NCBI GenBank assembly: GCA_963924555.1
Contig: OZ004585.1
Coordinates: 6,151,488-6,215,487 of the forward strand
Direction of reading: 5' to 3'
Length of the DNA: 64,000 nt
From: Crambe crambe
Lineage: Eukaryota > Porifera > Demospongiae > Poecilosclerida > Crambeidae
A program made the translations under genes and the position numbers. Each line of letters opens with the position of its first letter. Position 1 is the first letter of the stretch. Under the pieces are notes generated by a model, which saw only the letters and a list, made by a program, of their open reading frames with translations, was not told the origin of the DNA and searched no databases. Below are positions 20,048-62,873 of this stretch, piece after piece.

Positions 20048-21083
20048 TAGGCCTTGGCACATTATGCCAGCATAATTTTGAGCATAATATCATTGATTTG
20101 TAAGGCAAGCATAATCGAACATAATCAGCAATCATAATGAGCATAATCGTCTCATTCAAAAATAAGTAATATTTAGTTTGCTCTTTTCTAGCTCTAAGTG
20201 TTTTAATGCACCTGCACGAGAATGATGCTATAATGCTTGAGGTGAATGTAATGCATGAGCCGAAGGCGAGTGCATTACATCACCGAGAGCATTATAGCAT
20301 CATTCGAGTGCACCATGCATTAAAACACATGGAGCTAGAATAGAGTGATCTAAACATTTTAGTGCTGATCACATGACTTGTGACCAATCAAATTCCAGTT
20401 GGTCCTTACACAACCCTAGCCCTAGCTAGCCTAGCCCTAGTACCTAGCAAGCTCTGACATACTTTGGTTCAGTAAGAATGCTCTAATTTAATAATATTCA
20501 AATTCATTTGAAACCCAATGTAATAAGTGAAATGCTAAAGTCTATAAAAGAAAATATTAAGACATGTACTTACTGTAAGCACTAGGGACTGAGGCTGGAA
20601 GGTCATAGTCCTAGTGGATCTTCCACTAGGCTCCTATGTACCTTCAGCACAGTTCCCCAAGTGTGCACTAACATTTAGTGCACATAAAAGTGTGCTTTAT
20701 GAGATTTAAAGTACACTTTTCAGAGGATCTGATTGGTCACAAGTCATGTGACCAGCACTAAAATCATATATTCATTTTGAACAGCTATTATACTCTAGCA
20801 AGACACTCAATTCCACATAGTCTTGCAGTGAGCTAGTTTGTTTATCAGTAAAATGTCTTTTTAGCATTGTAAAAACTCTTTCAGCATCAGCTGATCACAA
20901 GCCATGAACACAATTATCACAAAACCCAGGATCAGATTACTGAGGTTAAAGGCCAGTGCACATGAGCATAATGACTTTGCACATGAGCATAATAACTTTA
21001 CACATGAGCATAATAACATGATTTTTTGAGCATAGAAGAATAGCATAATAGCCAATTTTTTGAGCATAATGTGCCAAGGCCTA
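20048..21083. mobile_element. 1036-bp non-autonomous hAT-like element
   Basis: The ends are perfect inverted repeats TAGGCCTTGGCACATTATG / CATAATGTGCCAAGGCCTA, flanked by an exact 8-bp duplication GTGCATGG (20040-20047 and 21084-21091). Removing the element and one duplication leaves the host transposase frame continuous. No transposase is encoded. Short AGCATAAT words are repeated near both ends, as in hAT subterminal regions. An inner palindrome occupies 20186-20340. Confidence 0.88.
20186..20340. repeat. 155-bp hairpin inside the hAT-like element
   Basis: Left arm TTCTAGCTCTAAGTGTTTTA and right arm TAAAACACATGGAGCTAGAA are complementary across a centre at ~20263, where a GC-rich GAGCCGAAGGCGAG forms the turn. 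Confidence 0.75.
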
Positions 21084-21699
21084 GTGCATGGTGGCATAGA
21101 TGGATATTCTCGAACAGTTGTGTTCTTATCTTGTGCTACCAACAATGCATCACAAACTGTTTTCAATTTGTTCCAGCAAGCTACAGAGGAGTATGGTGTT
21201 CCGAGTCGTGTGCGATCAGACAAAGGTGGAGAAAATATTAAAGTTTGTCGTTTCATGGTTAGTTTCCGAGGCACTGGGAGAAGAAGTCATCTTGCAGGTT
21301 CTTCTGTACATAACCAACGCATTGAGCGCCTTTGGCACGATGTGTATAGATGTGTATGTTCTACATACCATGAACTATTCTACAGTATGGAAGCTAGTGG
21401 AGTCTTGAATGTTGACTCGGAGGTGGACTTATTTGTTCTGCATTGTATTTTCCTGTCAGTAATCAATAGAAGTTTGAAAGAGTTTGTTAGAGCTTGGAAT
21501 TTACATCCTTTGAGAACTGAAGGTATTATTGGTCTCCAAAGAAGATTTGGCTGAGTGATATGGAAAAGCTTGATACTGTTTCTCCAAATTTTGGAATTGA
21601 CTATGGTGGGCCGTTATCTGATGAAGATGTGGGCACAGTTGATGTTCTAGAAACCATTAATCCCCTTGATGACCAAGAACTGAGGATTTTTTGACTGTT

Positions 21700-52627: not shown

Positions 52628-53445
52628 ATGGCTCTCTATCGCTACTTTCATCAAGATTCTCAGGCTCAGTCTCTTCCAGACCCACAGGGATCTTTATCAG
52701 AAACCATCCCTCCAGCAGTGATACGTAACTGCAATAAGGCCGTGAAAGAAGCTACTGCTGTGAAAGAAGCTAGTAGCTACTGCTGCAAAGCGAGGTACTT
52801 ACAATAAAATCACCCCAGAAAAGCAAGCCATAGTAGCAAAGTATGCAGCTGAGCATGGTAACAACGCTGCTGTTCTATTTTCTAGAAAAAAAATTGGTGC
52901 AGAGATAAAACCTAGTTCTGTTAGTACATGGAAAGACAATTTTTTAAAGAAATTAAACTGAAGACCAAGGCTGGAGAGGCACCAGAAGTCCTTAGTTTAC
53001 CGTTGAAAAAGAGGGGAAGGCCTTTACTGTTAGGTTAAAAGCTGGATGATAAGGTGAAAAGTTACTGTACGAGAGAAAAGTGGAGTAGTAACCACAGCTA
53101 TTACAATCTCAGCTGCTACTGCCATGGATAGTGAGGAGTGAAGACCGGAATCTTCTGGCGGAAAATGGAGGACCTATAATGCTTACCAAAAACTGGGTAA
53201 AATCTCTTCTTTTCCGTTTAAACTATGTGAAGAGAAGAGGGAGCTCCACTGCCAAAATAATGGTAAACTTTGATGAATTAAAAGAACAGTTTTTATATGA
53301 CATCAAAGTAGTAGTTGAGATGGAGGAAATTCCATTTGACTTAATTTTCAACTGGGATCAGACTGCTATAAGTATTGTACCAGGGTCATCTTGGACAATG
53401 GAAGAAAAGGGAACAAAACATTTTGAGATAGTTGGAATTAGTGAT
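52628..53445 (+). pseudogene. Pogo/Tigger-like (DDE_1) transposase, N-terminal block
   Basis: From an ATG the first frame encodes MALYRYFHQDSQAQ and SLPDPQGSLSETIP. After a frameshift near 52785, a DNA-binding-type region follows (YNKITPEKQAIVAKYAAEHG, then a Ser-Thr-Trp end). Several shifts and stops lie between 52960 and 53130. From 53131 the frame is open through NLLAENGGPIMLTKNWVKSL to the catalytic domain start, with the first Asp in FNWDQTAISIVPGSSW (~53356). It stops at the retrotransposon insertion point at 53445. The family cuts and pastes DNA at TA. The Asp motif and block order identify it clearly; the damage shows it is inactive. Confidence 0.75.
53441..53445. repeat. Target-site duplication of the LTR element, left copy
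   Basis: GTGAT here and at 58616-58620 flank the element. A one-base-shifted reading (AGTGA) is equally possible because of edge ambiguity. Confidence 0.8.
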
Positions 53446-53763
53446 GTGACGGAGCGCTAGCAGTTGATAATAGAGTAAACGTTTTAATAGACAAAGAGAG
53501 AACCGGCTGAATGAAAATGAATGTTCACAACATTTGAGAATTTTGAATTCTGTCTCTATGGCTATGAAATACTTTTTTTTATAGGGACAGACTATGGCTT
53601 CCTCTGATTGGCTAAAATGTTTGTCCAATAACTAGATATATCTACAAAAATAAACAATGAGTTACAACCAATAAGAATGATGATTTTGTATACTGCTTCA
53701 GGTGGATGAATAATTATATGATTACAGAATGATGGTTACAATACTTACAGTTAATAATAGTTA
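53446..53763 (-). repeat. LTR (3' LTR in element orientation)
   Basis: 318 bases beginning GTGACGGAGCGCTAGCAGTT and ending AATAATAGTTA on the plus strand. It matches 58301-58615 apart from about two substitution sites, a changed T/C run, a 14-base indel and a short insertion near 53713, which implies a fairly recent insertion. A purine-rich tract on the minus strand (plus 53764-53790, TCTTTCACACTCCTTCCCTC) sits at its inner edge as the expected polypurine primer. Confidence 0.9.
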
Positions 53764-54320
53764 GTCTTTCACACTCCTTCCCTCCTCTCCTGCAACAGAC
53801 TTGTCTTTTGCAATGTCTGTTGTGACTCTTGATAAAGCGTCAGCATTGCCATTCTTGTTCCCTGCTCGATGTACCACTTTGAATGAGTATGGTTGCAGGG
53901 CCAGACTCCATCTCGTGAGCCTTCCATTTTTGCCTTTTAAACGGTTCAGCCACACCAGTGATCTATGATCTGTTTGAATTGTAAATGGCCTTCCAAGCAA
54001 GTAGACTTTGAAGGTTTCCACTGCTAATTTTATAGCAAGACACTCCTTTTCAATAGTTGAATATCTTTGTTCTCGAGGTAAAAGTTTTCGACTAAAGTGT
54101 GCCACTGGACGATCTTTTCCGTCTTCATCCATTTGGCTAAGTACTGCTCCTACTCCGATATCTGAAGCATCCGTTTGTAAGACAAATTCTTTATCAAAGT
54201 CTGGACTACACAGAATTGGTGATTGACACAAAGCTTCTTTTAGAGTGTTGTAGGCTCTATCACATTCAACTGTCCATTTCACTTTGTCTGGGAGTGATTT
54301 TCTTGTGAGGTGAGTGAGTG
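53761..54320 (-). pseudogene. Retrotransposon RNase H domain (end of pol)
   Basis: The frame from ~54320 (KFIQNYAEIAASLTHLTRKS) runs to a stop at 53761. RNase H residues are visible: Asp in LQTDASDIGVGAVL, Glu in STIEKECLAIKL, Asp in IQTDHRSLVWL and Asp in GNADALSRV. This degrades the RNA strand after reverse transcription. It is offset by a frameshift near 54330 from the reverse-transcriptase thumb upstream. The pol stop overlaps the inner LTR edge region. All four acidic residues are intact. Confidence 0.88.
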
Positions 54321-54326
54321 ATGCTG

Positions 54327-56475
54327 CTATTTCTGCGTAATTCTGAATGAATTTCCAGTGAGACCGAGAAATCCTCTTACTTGTTTCTTTGTTGTTGGTA
54401 CTGGATAATTTTTGACTGCTACAATCTTCTCCTTGTCAAGTTTTACTTGACCATTTCCAACTACATGTCCCAGATATACACATTCCTTCATCCCAAAGTG
54501 ACACTTGCTAGGTTTGGCAGTAAGGTTACTTTTCCATAATCGCTGAAGCACTTTCTTGATATGTTTCAAATGTTCCACCCATCTCTCGCTGAAGATCACT
54601 ATATCATCCCACCAATTACAGTATCCATCATCCGTTGGAACGTTGCAGGTGCTCCGTTAAGACCAAATGACATCACTCGGAACTGAAAGAGTCCACTTGG
54701 GGTAGTAAAAGCTGTCTTGGGCCTATCTTTCTCCGCCATTGGAACCTGCCAATACCCTCGGGCCAAATCAAGAGTGGTTATATATTTGGCTTTGCCTAGT
54801 CTGTCAAGTAGTTCATCTGTTCTTGGCATCGGGTAAGCATCTATTGGTGTAACAGCATTCAGTTTCCTGAAGTCAACACAGAGACGAATATTGCCATCTT
54901 TCTTCTTCACCACAACTATAGGTGCTGCCCATTCACTGGCAGATGATTCTATTATCCCACTCTCCTTCATTTCTTGTAACTCTTTTGCTACAGCCTCTCT
55001 GTATGCATAGGGAATCCTATAAGGGGGTAGCCGGATGGGCTTTGAATTAGTGTTGATGGTATGTTCCGCCATATTTGTCTGTCCTGGTTTCCCTTGTAAA
55101 ACATCTTGAAACTCTTCCAAAATCTGTATCATCTCCTGTCTTTCCTGGTTTGAGAGGTAACTTTCCATGGATAACTGAGTTGTCTTGTTTGCCTTCCAGT
55201 CAGGGAACTCTTCCTCATTGACTTCCTTTGCTAAGTTGCACATTGCGATGGCTGTTTCCCACTTCTTCAATAAGTTGACATGGAAAACTTTTCTGCTCTT
55301 CTTTTGATCAGGTATCTCAACCAAATAATCCACTTTTCCAATTCTTTTTAGAATCTTGTAGGTACCCTGCCAACATGCTGTCAGCTTATTGTTAGTTGAG
55401 GGTAGCAATAGTAGTACTAGATCATTTGGAGCAAATTCTCGTTCTTTAGCATTACGATCATGCCATGCTTTCTGTAGATTACTGCCTGCTAACTTTTGCA
55501 TTCCTTCCAACTTGTTTCTCATATTCAGTATATAAGATATTATACTTTCACTACTCTTCGAACTTGTTTGCCATGACTCTTTCAAGATGTCCAGTGGTCC
55601 TCTCACTCTGTATCCACAGAGTAATTCGAATGGTGCAAATCCTGTTGAAGCCTGAGGTACTTCTCGATAGGCAAACAGAAGATAAGGGAGTAACACATCC
55701 CAATCTTTTCCTTCTTCGGCTGTCTTTCTCAACATACTTTTCAAAGTTTGATTAAAACGTTCAACCAGACCATCTGTCTGGGGATTGTAGGGTGTTGTTC
55801 GAATTGGTTGCACATGTAGCATGTTGTAGAGTTCCGTCAGTAGTTGTGATGTAAAATTAGTTTCTTGATCTGTGAGAATTTCTTCTGGAACTCCAACTCG
55901 AGCAAAAATCTTCAGTAGCTCCTCTGCTATACTTGCAGCATCAATATATCTCGTGGCTACTGCCTCTTGATACCTAGTTGCATAGTCACACACAACTAAT
56001 ATGTAGCGATGTCCTCTCCTGCTCTTTGGGAGTGGACCAATAATATCCATTGTAACTCTCCTGAATGGTTGGGATATAATTGGTAAAGGAACAAGGGGGG
56101 CGCGAGGGATTCTTCGTCTTGTTGTCTTCTGACATGTTTCACATTGGTGACAGTATCTAGCAATGTCTCGAAATACTGTAGGCCAGTAAAAGCGCTGCAA
56201 TACTCTTTGAGTCGTCTTTTCTTTTCCAAGATGACCAGCCAGTGGAATACTGTGAGCCAGGTTCATGACGGTGTCTCTGCATCCTCTGGGTAAAATCAAT
56301 TGATCCACTGCCATGTCTTCACTTCGACCTCTAGGAACCCATTTTCTGTACAGCACTCCATCCCGATAAAAGAATCTTCTTCCTTGTTCTGTGTCTCCTG
56401 TCTTGGCTGACTCTCGTGCCTCTCGAAGTGTGGTATCAGTTGCTTGAAGTATCTTAAGCTCTTCAGATGAAATAT
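54327..56475 (-). pseudogene. Retrotransposon integrase-reverse transcriptase (Gmr1 order)
   Basis: The long frame from 56475 to 54599 (585 codons from its first Met) starts with an HHCC zinc finger (HSIPLAGH...CHQCETC, residues ~35-75 of that Met-started frame). The integrase core follows with Asp104 (VTMDIIGPLP), Asp163 (ILTDQETNF) and Glu199 (TDGLVERFNQ), then a linker with FHVNLLKKW. The reverse transcriptase comes next: EWAAPIVVVKKKDG, LCVDFRKLN, and the first catalytic Asp in TTLDLARGYWQVP. At ~54605 the frame breaks exactly before the catalytic Asp pair. The next frame (to 54327) resumes with DDIVIFSERWVEHLKHI and YLGHVVGNGQ, but the residues normally between the preceding Gly-Gly and the Asp pair, including the Tyr, are missing. 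Integrase upstream of RT is unlike ordinary Ty3/gypsy. Confidence 0.9.
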
Positions 56476-57339
56476 CTAATTCATGTTTATTGATGTCATG
56501 ATTCTTCTTCTCATTAGATTGTTGATTTTCTTCATCCAGCTGTAGTTGTTCTCGTTGAAGTCTTTCTGCTCTCTTCTCACTTTAGGTCTTTTTAGTCTTT
56601 TCCTTACTTTTTCCAAATAGTTCATCATAAAATGGTCCATCCACGTAGTTGAATCTTCTTGCAATGAATTTGGTTGATCTTCACACTCTCTCTCATTCTC
56701 CTTCATCTCTTCTTTCTGCTTCTTGGCTTCACTTCTCGTGATAACAGCAAAGGCTTCTTCTCCTTCTATTCTGTCTTCTGTTGCTAGTAGTTCACCTAAC
56801 TCTGGTACATCAGTCCCAAGTAGGGCTGACATGGGTAGAGTGTCAGATACTGCTGCTTCAACTGTCATCTCTTTGCCATCTACCTCCATCGTAACATCTG
56901 CCATGGGATAAAGCACTGTATCCCCATGAGCACAACGAATGGCTACGGCTGATCCTTCTTTGATGCTGTCTTCTGGCACCAAATGTCAATGTATCATAGT
57001 CCTTGAACATCCAGTATCCAAATGGATGTCCCTCACTGACTTTCCTTCCACCACTCCGTATTTCAAGGTTCCAAGTTGTTTCACCAACCGTTGCTCCTTG
57101 ATCTTGGAAATTACTCCACCATTGACTGTGCGTTCCACACACAGCATGGCATTGTTAGGACACTTTGACGAATAGTGACCCTTCTTGTGACAATTGAAAC
57201 ATTCAAGTCCTTCTTGGGCTTGTTCATCTTTGTTTGGAAGTTCTCCCTTCCCTGTTCCTGTGATCTTGCTGGTTTCATGTGACAGTCCTTCGTCACATGT
57301 CCAAAGTTGCCATTCTGTCTTTTTTCTCCCCAGTTCCAC
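56476..57339 (-). pseudogene. Retrotransposon zinc knuckle and aspartic protease
   Basis: The frame from 57339 includes a CCHC knuckle (CFNCHKKGHYSSKC, ~57205) and the protease active-site turn IHLDTGCSRTMIH (~57000). A TGA at ~56985 ends it. The same frame reopens with LVPEDSIKEGSAVAI and a hydrophobic AVSDTLPMSALLGTDVPEL segment (the second protease half, ALLGTD flap/strand) and goes on to a charged linker ending at 56476. Another shift near 56590 is needed to enter integrase. A second, partial knuckle-like GNFGHVTKDCHMK lies in another frame at ~57290. The protease matures gag-pol in such elements. Confidence 0.8.
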
Positions 57340-58226
57340 GGGTAGCTAACTTGCCACTATGACCTTGTAGACGACTCTCCATTCTAGCTTGAAAGTAATC
57401 GTCCGCTAATTTGCCAGCATCTTCACTGGTTCCCGGTTTTCTTTCCTCAACAAAAACTCGTACTTCTTCGGGTAGTGTTGATAAAAATTGTTCCAGAACA
57501 ATTTTATCTCGAATTTGTTCCACAGTTTCTGCAGACTTGAGCCACTTTGTAGCTAAATAATCCAACTTTGCCACCATTTCTCTGTTTGACTCATCGTACT
57601 TCTTCTTACATGCTCTGAAGCGTTGCCTATAGCTCTCCTCAGTAATATCATACCGTTGTAAAATTGCTTCTTTCAATTTTTTTAAAAGAGCTTGCATCTA
57701 TATCATTCAGAGATGCATACGCTTGTTGAGCCTTCCCTATCAAATTTGCAGCAAGCTTGAATGCCCAACGTCCTTCATAAGCATTCATTATTCTCTCGAA
57801 CATGGATAGATATGCCACTATATCATCTTCTTCCATCAATTTCGGCACTTTTACATCTCTATCCTTCTCAGCTCTCTGAGATACTGCTTCTCCTTGCTGT
57901 TGTACTCCCTGCACCAAATTCTGCAGGAGCTCCATTTGTCGCTGAGTCTGTTCTTCTCTGCGTAATAGTTCCAGCTCTCTTTGCTGTCTTTCCTCTTGAT
58001 ACTGTTGCTCTCGTAGCCTTCTCTCCTGTTCCCATCATCGTCGTTCATTCTCCAGCTCCTCCTCTCTTCGCATCCGGTCTTCCATGAATCTTCTCATAAT
58101 ATCGGACATTTCTGCCGCCATGCCTCCAAGGCTGCTATCCAACGACTGCTGCGACCCGTTCCTAGCCGTACTTCCGGCTTCTAGCTCCTGGCCCAGTTCG
58201 TAACTAGTTCCAGCTCTGGTAGTCAT
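57293..58226 (-). pseudogene. Retrotransposon gag with SCAN-like domain
   Basis: The ATG at 58226 begins a coiled, Arg/Glu/Gln-rich N-terminus (MRRFMEDRMRREEELENERR). It is stopped by TGA at 58037-58035 and continues in frame as ELLQNLVQGVQQQGEAVSQR and PKLMEEDDIVAYLSMFERIM. At ~57697, in an A-run, the reading moves by one frame to a segment with clear SCAN-domain pattern: SYRQRFRACKKKYDESNREM, then LATKWLKSAETVEQIRDKIV, LEQFLSTLPEEVRVFVEERK and PGTSEDAGKLADDY. SCAN domains of vertebrate zinc-finger proteins are known to derive from the capsid of Gmr1-like elements. Gag forms the particle; this copy is broken. Confidence 0.85.
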
Positions 58227-58274
58227 ATCCAGCTTGACTGTGTTTTCGCTGACAACTCAACTGTCTGTCAATTA

Positions 58275-58291
58275 TCCCACCGCTGCCACCA
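58275..58291 (-). promoter_or_regulatory. Primer-binding site
   Basis: Read on the minus strand, TGGTGGCAGCGGTGGGA begins with TGG, complementary to a tRNA 3' CCA, nine bases inside the 5' LTR. I do not assign the tRNA species. Confidence 0.7.
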
Positions 58292-58300
58292 AAAATAACT

Positions 58301-58615
58301 GTGACGGAGCGCTAGCAGTTGATAATAGAGTAAACGTTTTAATAGACAAAGAGAGAACCGGCTGAATGAAAATGAATGTTCACAACACTTGAGAATTTTG
58401 AATTCTGTCTCTATGGCTATGAAATACTCCCTTTTATAGGGACAGACTATGGCTTCCTCTGATTGGCTAAAATGTTTGTCCAATAACTAGATATATCTAC
58501 AAAAATAAACAATGACTGTATCTAATGGTTACAACCAATAAGAATGATGATTTTGTATACTGCTTCAGGTGAATGACAGAATGATGGTTACAATACTTAC
58601 AGTTAATAATAGTTA
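58301..58615 (-). repeat. LTR (5' LTR in element orientation)
   Basis: 315 bases, partner of 53446-53763. The A/T-rich CCTTTTATAGGGACAG on the plus strand and the region around it presumably hold the minus-strand promoter, but no TATA position could be fixed with confidence. Confidence 0.9.
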
Positions 58616-59165
58616 GTGATAAAAGACAGATTACAACTCTCTTCTGTGGAACGTTCTTAGGTGACGTTTTACCCTTCCAACTAATTTATCAAGGGAAGCC
58701 AACAGCCTGCCTTCCACAATTTAAGTTTTCAGAAGATTGGGACCTAACCTATACTGATAATCATTGGTCTAATGAAGAGACCATGAAACAATATGTCAAC
58801 AAGATCATCGTCCCGTATGTTCAATCCAAACGTCAAGAGCTAAAGCTTCCTGCTGACTACCCAGCCCTTGCAATCTTTGATGTTTTTAAAGGTCAACAGA
58901 CTGATAATATCACCATACTTCTGGATAATAACAATATTGCACCGACAGACTGCAGCCCATGGACATTAGCGTTAATCGGTCTGCTAAAGAGTTCATGAGA
59001 GAAAAATTTAAAGAATGTTAATGGTATGCCAAAGAGGTTCAAAAGCAACTTGCCAATAAAGTCATTGCTGGAGTGGACTTGAAGAAACCACTGGGGGCCC
59101 ATTGGTTAGTTCAGTTTTTTGATCACATCAAATCAAATAATAGTATGGTTTCAAAGATGTATTAA
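58616..59165 (+). pseudogene. Pogo/Tigger-like transposase, C-terminal block
   Basis: Directly after the duplicated GTGAT the DDE core resumes in the frame interrupted at 53445: ITTLFCGTFLGDVLPFQLIY, WSNEETMKQYVNKIIVPYVQ, and the second catalytic Asp in ALAIFDVFKGQQTDN (~58879). A frameshift near 58945 is followed in another frame by LQPMDISVNRSAKEFMREKF (third acidic residue), a TAA near 59018, and an end of VIAGVDLKKPLGAHWLVQFF to a stop at 59163. The acidic residues D, D and D are all still recognisable, although the frame is not. Confidence 0.78.
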
Positions 59166-59203: not shown

Positions 59204-59713
59204 TTATTTGTTACACTCCAAAATTGGAAACAGTGAAAATGTTTGCATGTCAATACATTGAATTAAATGGGCTCGCATTGATGCCTGGCTAAAGTGAATA
59301 GTAGCTGGATTATGACCAAACGCCAGTGCTGTAGTGATGGCAATTGCATACACCCCACAGTCCTTCCCACCCTTCTGCTTTGGAGTAAATACACCTTGCA
59401 CTTTGCAGGATCCAAATAGATTATGGACGACATCTTTTGTCCCACTGTCTACTCTGTTATAAACTGAGTCATAAACATTCACCATTCCATCTACAGTAAA
59501 GAGTGTTGAAGCAACAATCCAATGATTCCCTCGGGAGTGAATTATTTGAACTTTATTGTTGGTGCTTCCAGAAGAAGGCTGTTTTTTCCCCTGTAACAAT
59601 ATTGACTGCAGCCCAGATAGATGTGGAAATTGTTTTTTCAGTATATATTGTACAGCATCAATAATAAGATCTTTCAGTTCTTCCCCAGAAACAATGCTCT
59701 CTTTCTCAACCAT
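59204..59713 (-). CDS. Ulp1/C48-type cysteine protease-like protein
   Basis: 169 codons, intact from its Met to a TAA. The catalytic pattern is in order: His in SRGNHWIVASTLF, Asp in VNVYDSVYNRV, and Cys in QKGGKDCGVYAIAITTALA. A closing MRAHLIQCID...LFPI motif matches the end of Ulp1-like domains often carried by DNA transposons in sponges and cnidarians. Ulp1 proteases remove SUMO or related modifiers; here a transposon-associated role is more likely than a host one. It is shorter than cellular Ulp1 and is probably the last exon or a C-terminal fragment. It lies tail to tail with the pogo-like transposase and 450 bases after the DIRS-like recombinase, same strand as the latter. Confidence 0.72.
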   Translation of the reverse strand: MVEKESIVSGEELKDLIIDAVQYILKKQFPHLSGLQSILLQGKKQPSSGSTNNKVQIIHSRGNHWIVASTLFTVDGMVNVYDSVYNRVDSGTKDVVHNLFGSCKVQGVFTPKQKGGKDCGVYAIAITTALAFGHNPATIHFSQASMRAHLIQCIDMQTFSLFPILECNK

Positions 59714-60163
59714 TGAGAGTGTGATCCCATTAACATTGTGCGGGTTTTGTATTAACTAACTAGTCTCCGTAACTCATGTCAAGATGGAGAAAAGGTTGGA
59801 AAATTACAAGGGCCACTCCCCTCATGTGGGTGGGATGCCTGACCCATCCCAGGCCAACTGACGGGCCCTTTACACTCTATTTGTCCCCTAGACTGGGAAC
59901 ATCCACTCGTCTGTGGACTGTCTGTCCAAACACCTTTTCGTAAGCCCCGGAGATTTAGGGGAGTGAATGTCAGACCAGACATCCTCCAGTGGCACAGCCA
60001 CACTCCCCAAATCTACTAACCCATTAGTACATGATACATGATTATATCTATTCACACCTTCCTCATCATTACCGCTATTGGTACACCCCCTCCCCTTATA
60101 ATTTAATTGGCATAATGATTATGGCAATCAGCTGACCAGCCAATCATATATATAAATTATGCA
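59714..60163 (-). other. Tail region of the DIRS/Ngaro-type element
   Basis: Follows the recombinase stop on the minus strand. A GC-rich block (59790-60005) with an open frame but no family features is followed by AT-rich sequence. Ngaro/DIRS elements carry split direct or inverted repeats here. Its partner would lie beyond the window end, so it cannot be confirmed. Confidence 0.4.
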
Positions 60164-61108
60164 TCAGATAATGGTGTGAGTGCCAATTAATGTGGCTGAG
60201 ACTGCTGCTAGTTGTTGTTGTGGGGTGCGGATGTATGATTCAAATGCTGATGATTTCCTACGTCCAAGAGTCTTTATGAGAGAATCACTCAAGCCCATTT
60301 TAGCAGCTGTCGTTGCTGCACCGATGCGGAAACTATGTCCACTAAAGCAGGAATCATCCACTCCTGCTGCCTGCAGAGCCTGTCATAGAAAGTGCACCAG
60401 CTTAGGTCTTGAGAGAGTGCAGCCATCCTCAAACAGGAACAGTGGCCCTGGGGTAAGGGGTCGAATCGCCAGGTACCCCAGCATCGATGTAACTGGACAC
60501 AAGACATCCCCTGTGATACCCAAGTGCAGGATTGTTCCCACTGCAAAGGGGTCATTTTTGCTCCTCTTTAAATGAATGGCCACATGTGAAGGGGCAGCAT
60601 GTGAGTCGACCGAGATATCACCTGGAGAAAGCATATCTGGGGTATAGGCCTCCCAGGAGGAGCAAGTGAATTCCCTGAACGCAGAAAGGCAAAAAAGCCC
60701 AAACAAAAAGCAAACAAAAAGCTGCCCATAGCATCGTCTGGTTGTAGCTCTTGGGTCGCTGAGACCACACCTGGTATATCTTCCTGAGCAGCTCCGGTGT
60801 GATAGGCAACCGAGGGCATGTCTGCAGGTGTGGGCCCTCTCGTCGGAGTCCCCGCAATGCATAATTCAGTTTTGGAAATGCTGTCAGTGCCGGTTACCCA
60901 TTATCTGTAAGTGACGGATGGTACACAAATATAAACGAATGGATGAATAGCTTAGGGACAACGAAAATAAGAAGGCCACAAAGCGGAGGAGGGTACTTTC
61001 CTCCACTGGCAAGGGTTTATAGTGAAACTGAGCACAGAATGAGAGATACCTCCTTTTACCAGATGCATATGCCATTAAGGTGGAGTTGGCAACACCTCGT
61101 TTAACGAG
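60164..61108 (-). pseudogene. DIRS/Ngaro-type tyrosine recombinase
   Basis: The SAM-like N-terminal part starts within the end of the RNase H frame (LVKRGVANSTLMAYASGKRR, then PVEESTLLRFVAFLFSL). Frameshifts near 60890, 60710 and 60640 divide the middle (LPITPELLRKIYQVWSQ; FCLGFFAFLRSGNSLAPPG; MLSPGDISVDSHAAPSHVAI). The last frame reaches the catalytic region, where a TGA at 60387 precedes GHSFRIGAATTAAKMGLSD (HxxR) and ALGRR-type SLIKTLGRRKSSAFESYIRT with the final Tyr. A retroelement with a tyrosine recombinase integrates a circular intermediate without an integrase. All expected motifs can be seen, but the copy is defective. Confidence 0.8.
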
Positions 61109-62873
61109 TGCACAAACAGTAGAGTCCAGGTCTGAGACCCCCAGTCCGGCCTTGTGGTTATTAACAGCTTGCGAAGGGAAGGTGGGGTGGAGAACCGAGT
61201 CACCTGGGGGACAAGAGATGAGAATAATGTTAGGTTATCACGGGATATTGCATCTGCTACCTTATTCATCACCCCTGGGACATGACTGGATGATGAGTGG
61301 AATTGATAATATGCACAATAAAATGAAAAACACCGCAGTAGGTGCATCAGTTGGGGGGTCTTGGCAGTCCTGCTATTGAGGATAGCGACCACTGCCATGT
61401 TATCTGAATGGAAATGAATATGCTTGCCCTGCCAGTACTTCCCCCAAAGAGCTGCTGCTATAACTATGAGTACCATCTCCTTTACCGAAATATTCACTTC
61501 TTTCCATTCCCCAGGCCACTGAACTTGGAACCACCCCCATGTATCCACGACAGCCCCACCACCATATGAACCTGAGGCGTCCGAGTACACATGGCAAGCT
61601 GGGTCAGGAAGTGGAAAAAATGATGAGCCATTCCAGGATTGAAGGAAACATTTCCACCATGCCAAGTCAGCCCTGGCTCCTGCAGTAAGGCGTACGAAAT
61701 GACTTGGTAGCTTGGCTTGATGAAGCAAACTGAAGAGCTGGCGAAGGAACGTGCGGCCAGGGCGTACTACTGTAGCCGCATGCGACAAATGCCCAAGCAA
61801 TGACTCTAGTTCTTTCCTGGTGCTTGACTTCCTGAGACACCATCCTTGCAGCAGAGTCTGCAAGCGCTCAATTTTTTCGGCCGGTAGTCTCAGCTCCAAT
61901 GCTTTGATGTCGATGAGGATACCAAGGAAAGTCACACAGCATGAAGGTCCTTCAGTTTTATGGATTGCCACAGGGATCCCCAGGAACTTTAGTATTCTCA
62001 TGGCCGTGGTCAAGGCTTCTGCCCCTTCTCTCTAGTTTGGGGATCCCATGAGCAGAAAATCGTCCAGGTAGTGGATGAGGTGTCGCACTCCTGCGCAGTG
62101 CAGCACCCATGTAACCATATCTGCCACTGCGGAGAAGATTTTTGGTGCCGATCTCAATCCAAATGGGAGGGCACGATCGACATATATAGACCCCTCCCAT
62201 TCAATTCCCAATAGATGGTGGTCCTGTGGGTGAATTGGCACCATGCGGTATGCATTTTTGAGGTCAAGCTTGACCAGCTCCGCCCCTCTGCCATGCCTCA
62301 AGATGTGCTGGATTGCCTGATCTATGGAGGCATAGGAGATGGATGACAGGTCCGGTGAGATCCCGTCATTCACACTGTGGTCCTTTGGGAATGAGAGGTC
62401 GACGATCATGAGCCACCTATTTGCCTGAGATTTAGGGACCAGGCCAATCGGGCTAGTGTGGACGGAGGTGTGTAATGGCCTCAGCAATGGGCCCATGAGC
62501 CGCCCTGCCTCTGACTCCACTCTTATGTACTCCCGCACTACCGATTGATTCCCCGAAGCTGAAGGATGGTTTCTGGAAGCTGACTGCAAGGCAGGGCCAC
62601 ATCGGCTGAAGCCTATACGGAATCCCTCCGATAACCCTGAATGAATGTATGATGCAAACCTTGAGAAAGCAGGAATTCCATCCAGTTAGAGAGATGTATA
62701 GGCGATGGACCGGTGGGCCATGCCATGGGATGAGAGTCATCCCTGCACCTATCAAACTGGAGAAGATCTTCCATATACCTGTACCGACCATTGGTGATGT
62801 TTGCAGCTGGGAGGGTGATACCACTTGTAGGTTCTGGGAGTCCAAGTGTAGGGTTCACACCTGTAGTGTGCAA
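61075..62873 (-). pseudogene. DIRS/Ngaro-type reverse transcriptase-RNase H
   Basis: The start (PTSGITLPAANITNGRYRYM) is in one frame. A one-base shift near 62640 leads to GFRIGFSRCGPALQSASRNH. RT motifs then follow: VPKSQANRWLMIVDLSFPKD, LVKLDLKNAYRMVPIHPQDH (first Asp), FGLRSAPKIFSAVADMVTW and the YLDDFLLMGSPN box (~62050). An in-frame TAG at 62034-62032 is followed by MRILKFLGIPVAIHKTE. RNase H completes it: HVYSDASGSYGGGAV, SVKEMVLIVIAAALW, HFHSDNMAVVAIL and VADAISRDNL, ending at 61075. The stop overlaps the start region of the recombinase frame, as in related elements. Confidence 0.85.

Follow-up and report, generated by a model that had tools for sequence, protein, structure and literature searches.

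A broken Gmr1-like retrotransposon with integrase ahead of reverse transcriptase and a SCAN-type capsid in a sponge genome

Gmr1-like retrotransposons reportedly go back to Goodwin and Poulter (2002). In passages of PMC6238403, Gmr1 elements are described as having integrase upstream of the reverse transcriptase (RT). In frogs, the SCAN domain (pfam02023) is reported in over half of the Gmr elements and in no other type of long terminal repeat (LTR) element, according to a section of PMC4131045. PMC3424704 and PMC4592553 state that SCAN derived from a Gmr1-like gag, so that mammalian zinc-finger proteins would owe their SCAN domain to a capsid of the Gmr1 type. As for hosts, portions of the respective sources give the first protostome Gmr1-like elements from crustaceans (PMC3587641), one Gmr1-like family in the annelid Lamellibrachia (PMC8220671) and Gmr1 among the clades present in several phyla (PMC8556966). 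Here, we analyzed a 64,000-nt stretch of Crambe crambe (contig OZ004585.1 of assembly GCA_963924555.1; hereafter the window, to which all element coordinates refer). It contains an LTR retrotransposon copy which, with high confidence, we consider to be a dead copy of a Gmr1-type Ty3/gypsy element in a sponge. The finding adds a host to those recorded for the Gmr1 type and does not amount to a new kind of element. No sponge case of a Gmr1-like element was found in the literature searched; Repbase and most subscription papers lay outside that search, and earlier records may exist.

The copy spans 53445-58614 on the minus strand, within one base of the coordinates given in a preliminary description of this DNA. 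Its domain order is gag(SCAN)-nucleocapsid-(protease)-integrase-RT-RNase H. The frames were searched separately against Pfam, and the protease was placed by eye. The features are as follows.

53440..53444, no strand: left target-site duplication, AGTGA (read directly)
53445..53762, minus: 3' LTR, 318 bp (alignment to the other LTR)
53766..53790, minus: polypurine tract (PPT), 3 nt before the 3' LTR (read directly)
53887..54201, minus: RNase H (RT_RNaseH, PF17917; Pfam 3.4e-40, frame 53761-54435)
54462..54623, minus: C-terminal part of RT in a separate frame, 54327-54656 (RVT_1 positions 149-204, 9.4e-10)
54599..56581, minus: 660-aa frame with integrase, then the first part of RT (list of open reading frames and Pfam)
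54611..54910, minus: N-terminal part of RT (RVT_1 positions 1-139, 1.4e-19)
55259..55402, minus: C-terminal SH3-like domain of integrase (SH3_Tf2-1, 6.8e-10)
55781..56071, minus: integrase core (rve, 4.2e-10, 40.2 bits, cut-off 32.6)
56120..56290, minus: zinc-binding domain of integrase (Integrase_H2C2, 9.4e-19)
56476..57345, minus: putative aspartic protease region (LDTG by eye near the end of frame 56986-57345)
57154..57204, minus: CCHC zinc knuckle (zf-CCHC 0.0011, 19.4 bits, just below the cut-off of 20.8; frame 56986-57345)
57380..57637, minus: SCAN domain, the C-terminal lobe of the capsid (PF02023, 3.7e-22, 78.3 bits)
57648..58256, minus: remaining gag, broken, from its position probably the N-terminal capsid lobe and upstream part (frames 57648-58034 and 58035-58256; no Pfam match)
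58274..58291, minus: primer binding site (PBS) TGGTGGCAGCGGTGGGAT, 8 nt after the 5' LTR (read directly)
58300..58614, minus: 5' LTR, 315 bp (alignment to the other LTR)
58615..58619, no strand: right target-site duplication, AGTGA (read directly)

The preliminary description had proposed a minus-strand frame with integrase followed by RT, and a SCAN-like gag. Both proposals were borne out. The 660-aa frame contains H2C2, rve, SH3_Tf2-1 and RVT_1 in that order, and the translation of 57293-57697 matches Pfam SCAN far above the cut-off of 27 bits. The copy thus has both traits of Gmr1-like elements, integrase upstream of RT and a SCAN-type capsid, the latter being typical but not universal. Paired LTRs, a target-site duplication, a PBS and a PPT are all present. 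The two LTRs differ at 5 of 303 aligned columns, all transitions, and by indels of 15 and 12 nt (Jukes-Cantor distance 0.0167). An open gag-pol frame is absent. As the domains lie in several different frames, the copy is broken. In intact relatives from the same genome, gag and pol share a single frame that is at least about 1500 aa long.

We then looked at the family across the genome (143.1 Mb, 119 contigs). Pfam SCAN was found at 54 places, 52 of them above the cut-off, and at none in 14 prokaryote control genomes. An integrase followed downstream on the same strand in 46 of the 54 (at a distance of 1350-2009 bp in 45 cases and of 3978 bp in the remaining one), and eight had no listed integrase. 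Open frames of 1200-1724 aa enclosed 17 of the SCAN places. Among 20 SCAN loci extracted for a check of domain order, the window's own included, 18 had SCAN, integrase, RT and RNase H in that order, several of them in one frame. The exceptions were L049, with SCAN only, and L057, without an RT match. Therefore, the order is no accident of the window copy. Given a broken copy in a window full of mobile elements, one might suspect that an adjacent integrase and RT of two nested elements mimic the integrase-first order. However, integrase and RT share one frame here, the order recurs in 18 of the 20 loci, and 89 of 150 RT places scored in the genome lie behind an integrase. Such an artefact is refuted by these observations and has practically no chance of being true.

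Seventeen LTR pairs were accepted from the 20 loci; L049 and L057 had none, and that of L047 was set aside as spurious. All 17 LTR-paired loci had the PBS TGGTGGCAG(C/T)GGTGGGAT within 12 nt of the LTR; the window copy was among them (TGGTGGCAGCGGTGGGAT or a one-base variant). The complement of the PBS together with a T-loop motif occurred at three exact places in the genome and at one with a mismatch. The primer may be a tRNA-Leu. Exact 5-nt duplications were found at the LTR alignment ends of L042, L043 and L055, and the others had shifted ends or none. At L034 (421-800), a sibling on contig C9, the LTR has another PBS, TGGTGTCAGAAGTGGGAT, after it and a PPT-like stretch before it, as if in tandem. 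The LTR type of the window is rare, with 16 matches in the genome, several of them partial. The window copy, itself broken, thus belongs to a small subfamily.

Eight of the 17 LTR pairs had no mismatch, so some insertions are recent. The Gmr1 type is common and partly young in this genome. The identical pairs would also fit a horizontal arrival, by which the integrase-first elements came from another marine animal and not from sponge ancestors, and movement of LTR elements from one aquatic host to another is known (PMC5055719). However, an old lineage with young copies would give the same picture. Moreover, the integrase-first RTs of the genome are anywhere between 42 and 100% identical to that of the window, a spread which speaks for long residence or many arrivals. 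We therefore regard a horizontal arrival as unlikely.

A profile was built from 12 SCAN stretches of this genome, the window's included, with 40-63% identity to that of the window. In the PDB, it matched ZNF24 (5e-13), PEG3 (1.5e-10), ZNF42 (1e-9), ZNF174 (3.2e-9) and ZSCAN10 (2.6e-4), and nothing beyond these five at E 0.01. A profile of six RT stretches had Ty3 RT as the best of 204 PDB sequences (2.2e-43), as expected of Ty3/gypsy elements (Metaviridae), in a database with few RTs of LTR elements.

The host was examined through its own genes. The mitochondrial contig C119 carries cox1 (1.7e-144) with in-frame TGA. This cox1 contains ten AGR codons, and in the alignment with its best PDB hit seven of them stand opposite Arg (counted by eye), so AGR is read as Arg. 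We take this to exclude the echinoderm, ascidian and vertebrate mitochondrial codes. An 85-aa frame of ATP-synthase c (ATP-synt_C, atp9) lies on the same contig and strand. Wnt had 14 matches in the genome and none in the 14 prokaryote control genomes, which makes the host an animal. Among animals, mitochondrial atp9 presumably marks a sponge. Fungi and choanoflagellates also have mitochondrial atp9 but are not known to have Wnt. The combination of an animal genome, mitochondrial AGR=Arg, TGA=Trp and atp9 thus points to a sponge, and the host is not a deuterostome; a deuterostome source would have spoken against the preliminary description. That description noted that Gmr1-like elements were first described from deuterostomes. 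Since they have been reported from protostomes too (PMC3587641 and PMC8220671), a copy outside deuterostomes is no longer surprising in itself. A second 85-aa match to ATP-synthase c was seen on contig C3 and is possibly a nuclear copy. Contig C119 is strongly G-rich on the coding strand, and its neighboring nd genes were read by eye only.

The two domain orders were compared by RT and integrase searches of the genome. The RT of the window (155 aa) was the query for RT, and 150 of 580 candidate places were scored. Integrase places came from a Pfam rve search (150 scored of 586) and a search with the integrase of the window (150 scored of 792). Pairing was by coordinates and used all 150 window-integrase places plus 33 rve places judged relevant. 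Besides the 89 RT places behind an integrase (38 with SCAN), 36 were ahead of one (none with SCAN) and 25 were unpaired. One candidate for an RT-first element with SCAN, C14:1870275, was rejected. Its SCAN is 1535 bp from RT and no integrase is listed. The sequence between SCAN and RT (L062) holds a remnant of the C-terminal SH3 domain of integrase without a core, and the sequence downstream of RT (L061) gave no integrase match. It is therefore best taken for an integrase-first element that has suffered a deletion.

In RT, eleven RT-first elements are closer to the window copy (51-59% identity) than are 18 integrase-first ones (42-49%). The eleven are C3:2505650-2507850 (L060), C17:2798097, C10:4236966, C80:6615, C19:4693515, C8:4042620, C5:5835187 (L063), C14:6777799, C75:23411, C1:7540124 and C10:1719797. 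The first five form one group, made up of L060 and four others at 75-76% identity to it. L060 is open over 733 aa in the order RT, RNase H, H2C2, rve. No SCAN place was found within 9 kb of any of the eleven. L063 lies in an 1850-aa frame; a zinc knuckle was found in the gag of this element, and SCAN was not matched there even at E values up to 5. Its capsid stretch had 32 matches in the genome, among them weak ones that precede other RT-first elements and three integrase places. The two groups may thus have distantly related capsids.

Trees were built from elements of the same genome and Ty3. In them, the window copy falls among the integrase-first elements. In the integrase tree (23 rows), a branch with 90/85 support sets the integrase-first rows apart from the others, and L060 comes next to them (84/79). 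The RNase H tree (19 rows) was weakly resolved, and the RT-first L001, on a long branch, stood among the integrase-first rows. In the RT tree (21 rows, 139 columns), the group of the window has 15 rows (84/87), and the integrase-first L064 and L065 are apart from it without good support; they were likewise separated in an initial LG tree, where support was 65-91. A single clade of all integrase-first rows was not rejected in the RT tree (p-AU 0.285), nor was one of these rows plus L060 (p-AU 0.129). Long branches are in play, and the key taxa had only 139 RT columns; the integrase-first order may have arisen once or more than once. Alignments of SCAN and integrase against viral contigs, and of integrase against genome contigs, confirmed no relative.

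The mixture of both orders among close RTs, with eleven standard-order elements at 51-59%, and the separate position of L064 and L065 would be expected if a sponge Ty3/gypsy lineage had moved its integrase forward independently of the deuterostome Gmr1, outside the Gmr1 clade. However, the reordered elements share a second trait, the SCAN-type capsid reported for frog Gmr1 elements in the section cited above, and one origin within this genome was not rejected in the RT tree. Such a convergence seems decidedly improbable. Membership in the Gmr1 clade by descent is what we infer. More tentatively, and with considerable doubt, the last common ancestor of sponges and other animals might already have had retrotransposons with the integrase-first order and the SCAN-type capsid, and the order might have changed more than once within this sponge. 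Standard-order elements such as the L060 group would then be either a sister that was never rearranged or a reversion to the former order.

Several points weigh against our assignment to the Gmr1 type. The trees cover only elements of this genome and Ty3, and the likeness to Gmr1 is one of described order and SCAN capsid. SCAN was not detected by Pfam in 51 of the 89 integrase-first elements of the genome; it is either not universal in them or too diverged for Pfam. In the window copy, Pfam found no protease. At its ends (58286-58614 and 53763-53800), the LTR starts with AACTATT, when most relatives start with TG, the PBS lies 8 nt from the LTR, compared with 2-3 nt in most relatives, and the PPT lies 3 nt from the LTR.

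When the flanks of the element were joined, with AGTGA counted once, a single 243-codon open frame ran through the insertion site. The two plus-strand pieces interrupted by the element (53092-53444 and 58620-58998) are weakly DDE_1-like. The right piece matched Pfam DDE_1 at 0.0077, below the cut-off, and the joined frame had no Pfam match at E 0.01; thus "DDE_1-like" or "transposase-like" is a weak label. The preliminary description had mentioned neither the several frame changes of the copy nor its position inside this frame. Elsewhere in the window, adjoining minus-strand frames at 61075-62685 matched RVT_1 (9.4e-9) and, weakly, RNase H (0.0014), by eye of the DIRS/tyrosine-recombinase type. 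An integrase core domain (rva_4, 1.9e-61) lies at 21036-21554 on the plus strand, and a weak match to an Ulp1-type protease (0.0038, below the cut-off) at 59204-59755 on the minus strand.

From these features, a life cycle can be proposed. The element RNA would be primed by a tRNA whose 3' end pairs with TGGTGGCAGCGGTGGGAT. It would be packaged in a capsid with a SCAN-like C-terminal lobe and copied by the predicted RT and RNase H activities, and the integrase would insert the copy with a 5-bp duplication. The polyprotein would be cut by the element's own protease, so integrase before RT need not alter the mature enzymes. The window copy presumably inserted into the transposase-like frame and later lost its open frames.

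Such elements are numerous in this sponge genome, and some of them have open frames and young LTRs; they offer a non-bilaterian sample of the capsid from which SCAN reportedly derives. Dating of the reordering by sponge elements, as envisaged in the preliminary description, would need proof of vertical descent. The standard-order kin beside the integrase-first elements are the part most worth following. With their similar RTs, they make up a concrete set for asking whether integrase moved once, more than once, or back.

Compared with known systems, the element has in common with Gmr1-like Ty3/gypsy elements the integrase upstream of RT and an RT, RNase H and integrase of Ty3/gypsy type; it differs in its sponge host, and the likeness is one of description, not of sequence. 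With frog Gmr elements, it also shares the SCAN-type capsid (a section of PMC4131045). The likeness to amniote SCAN zinc-finger proteins consists of the profile match to the Pfam family and to the five human-type PDB chains, whereas the sponge SCAN sits in a retrotransposon gag with a zinc knuckle and with pol behind it. Yeast Ty3 (PDB 4ol8, 7q5b) was the best PDB match of the sponge RT profile but has RT ahead of integrase. The L060 group of the same genome, 55% identical in RT and 50% in RNase H to the pieces of the window, differs in its RT-RNase H-H2C2-rve order and in having no SCAN place within 9 kb.

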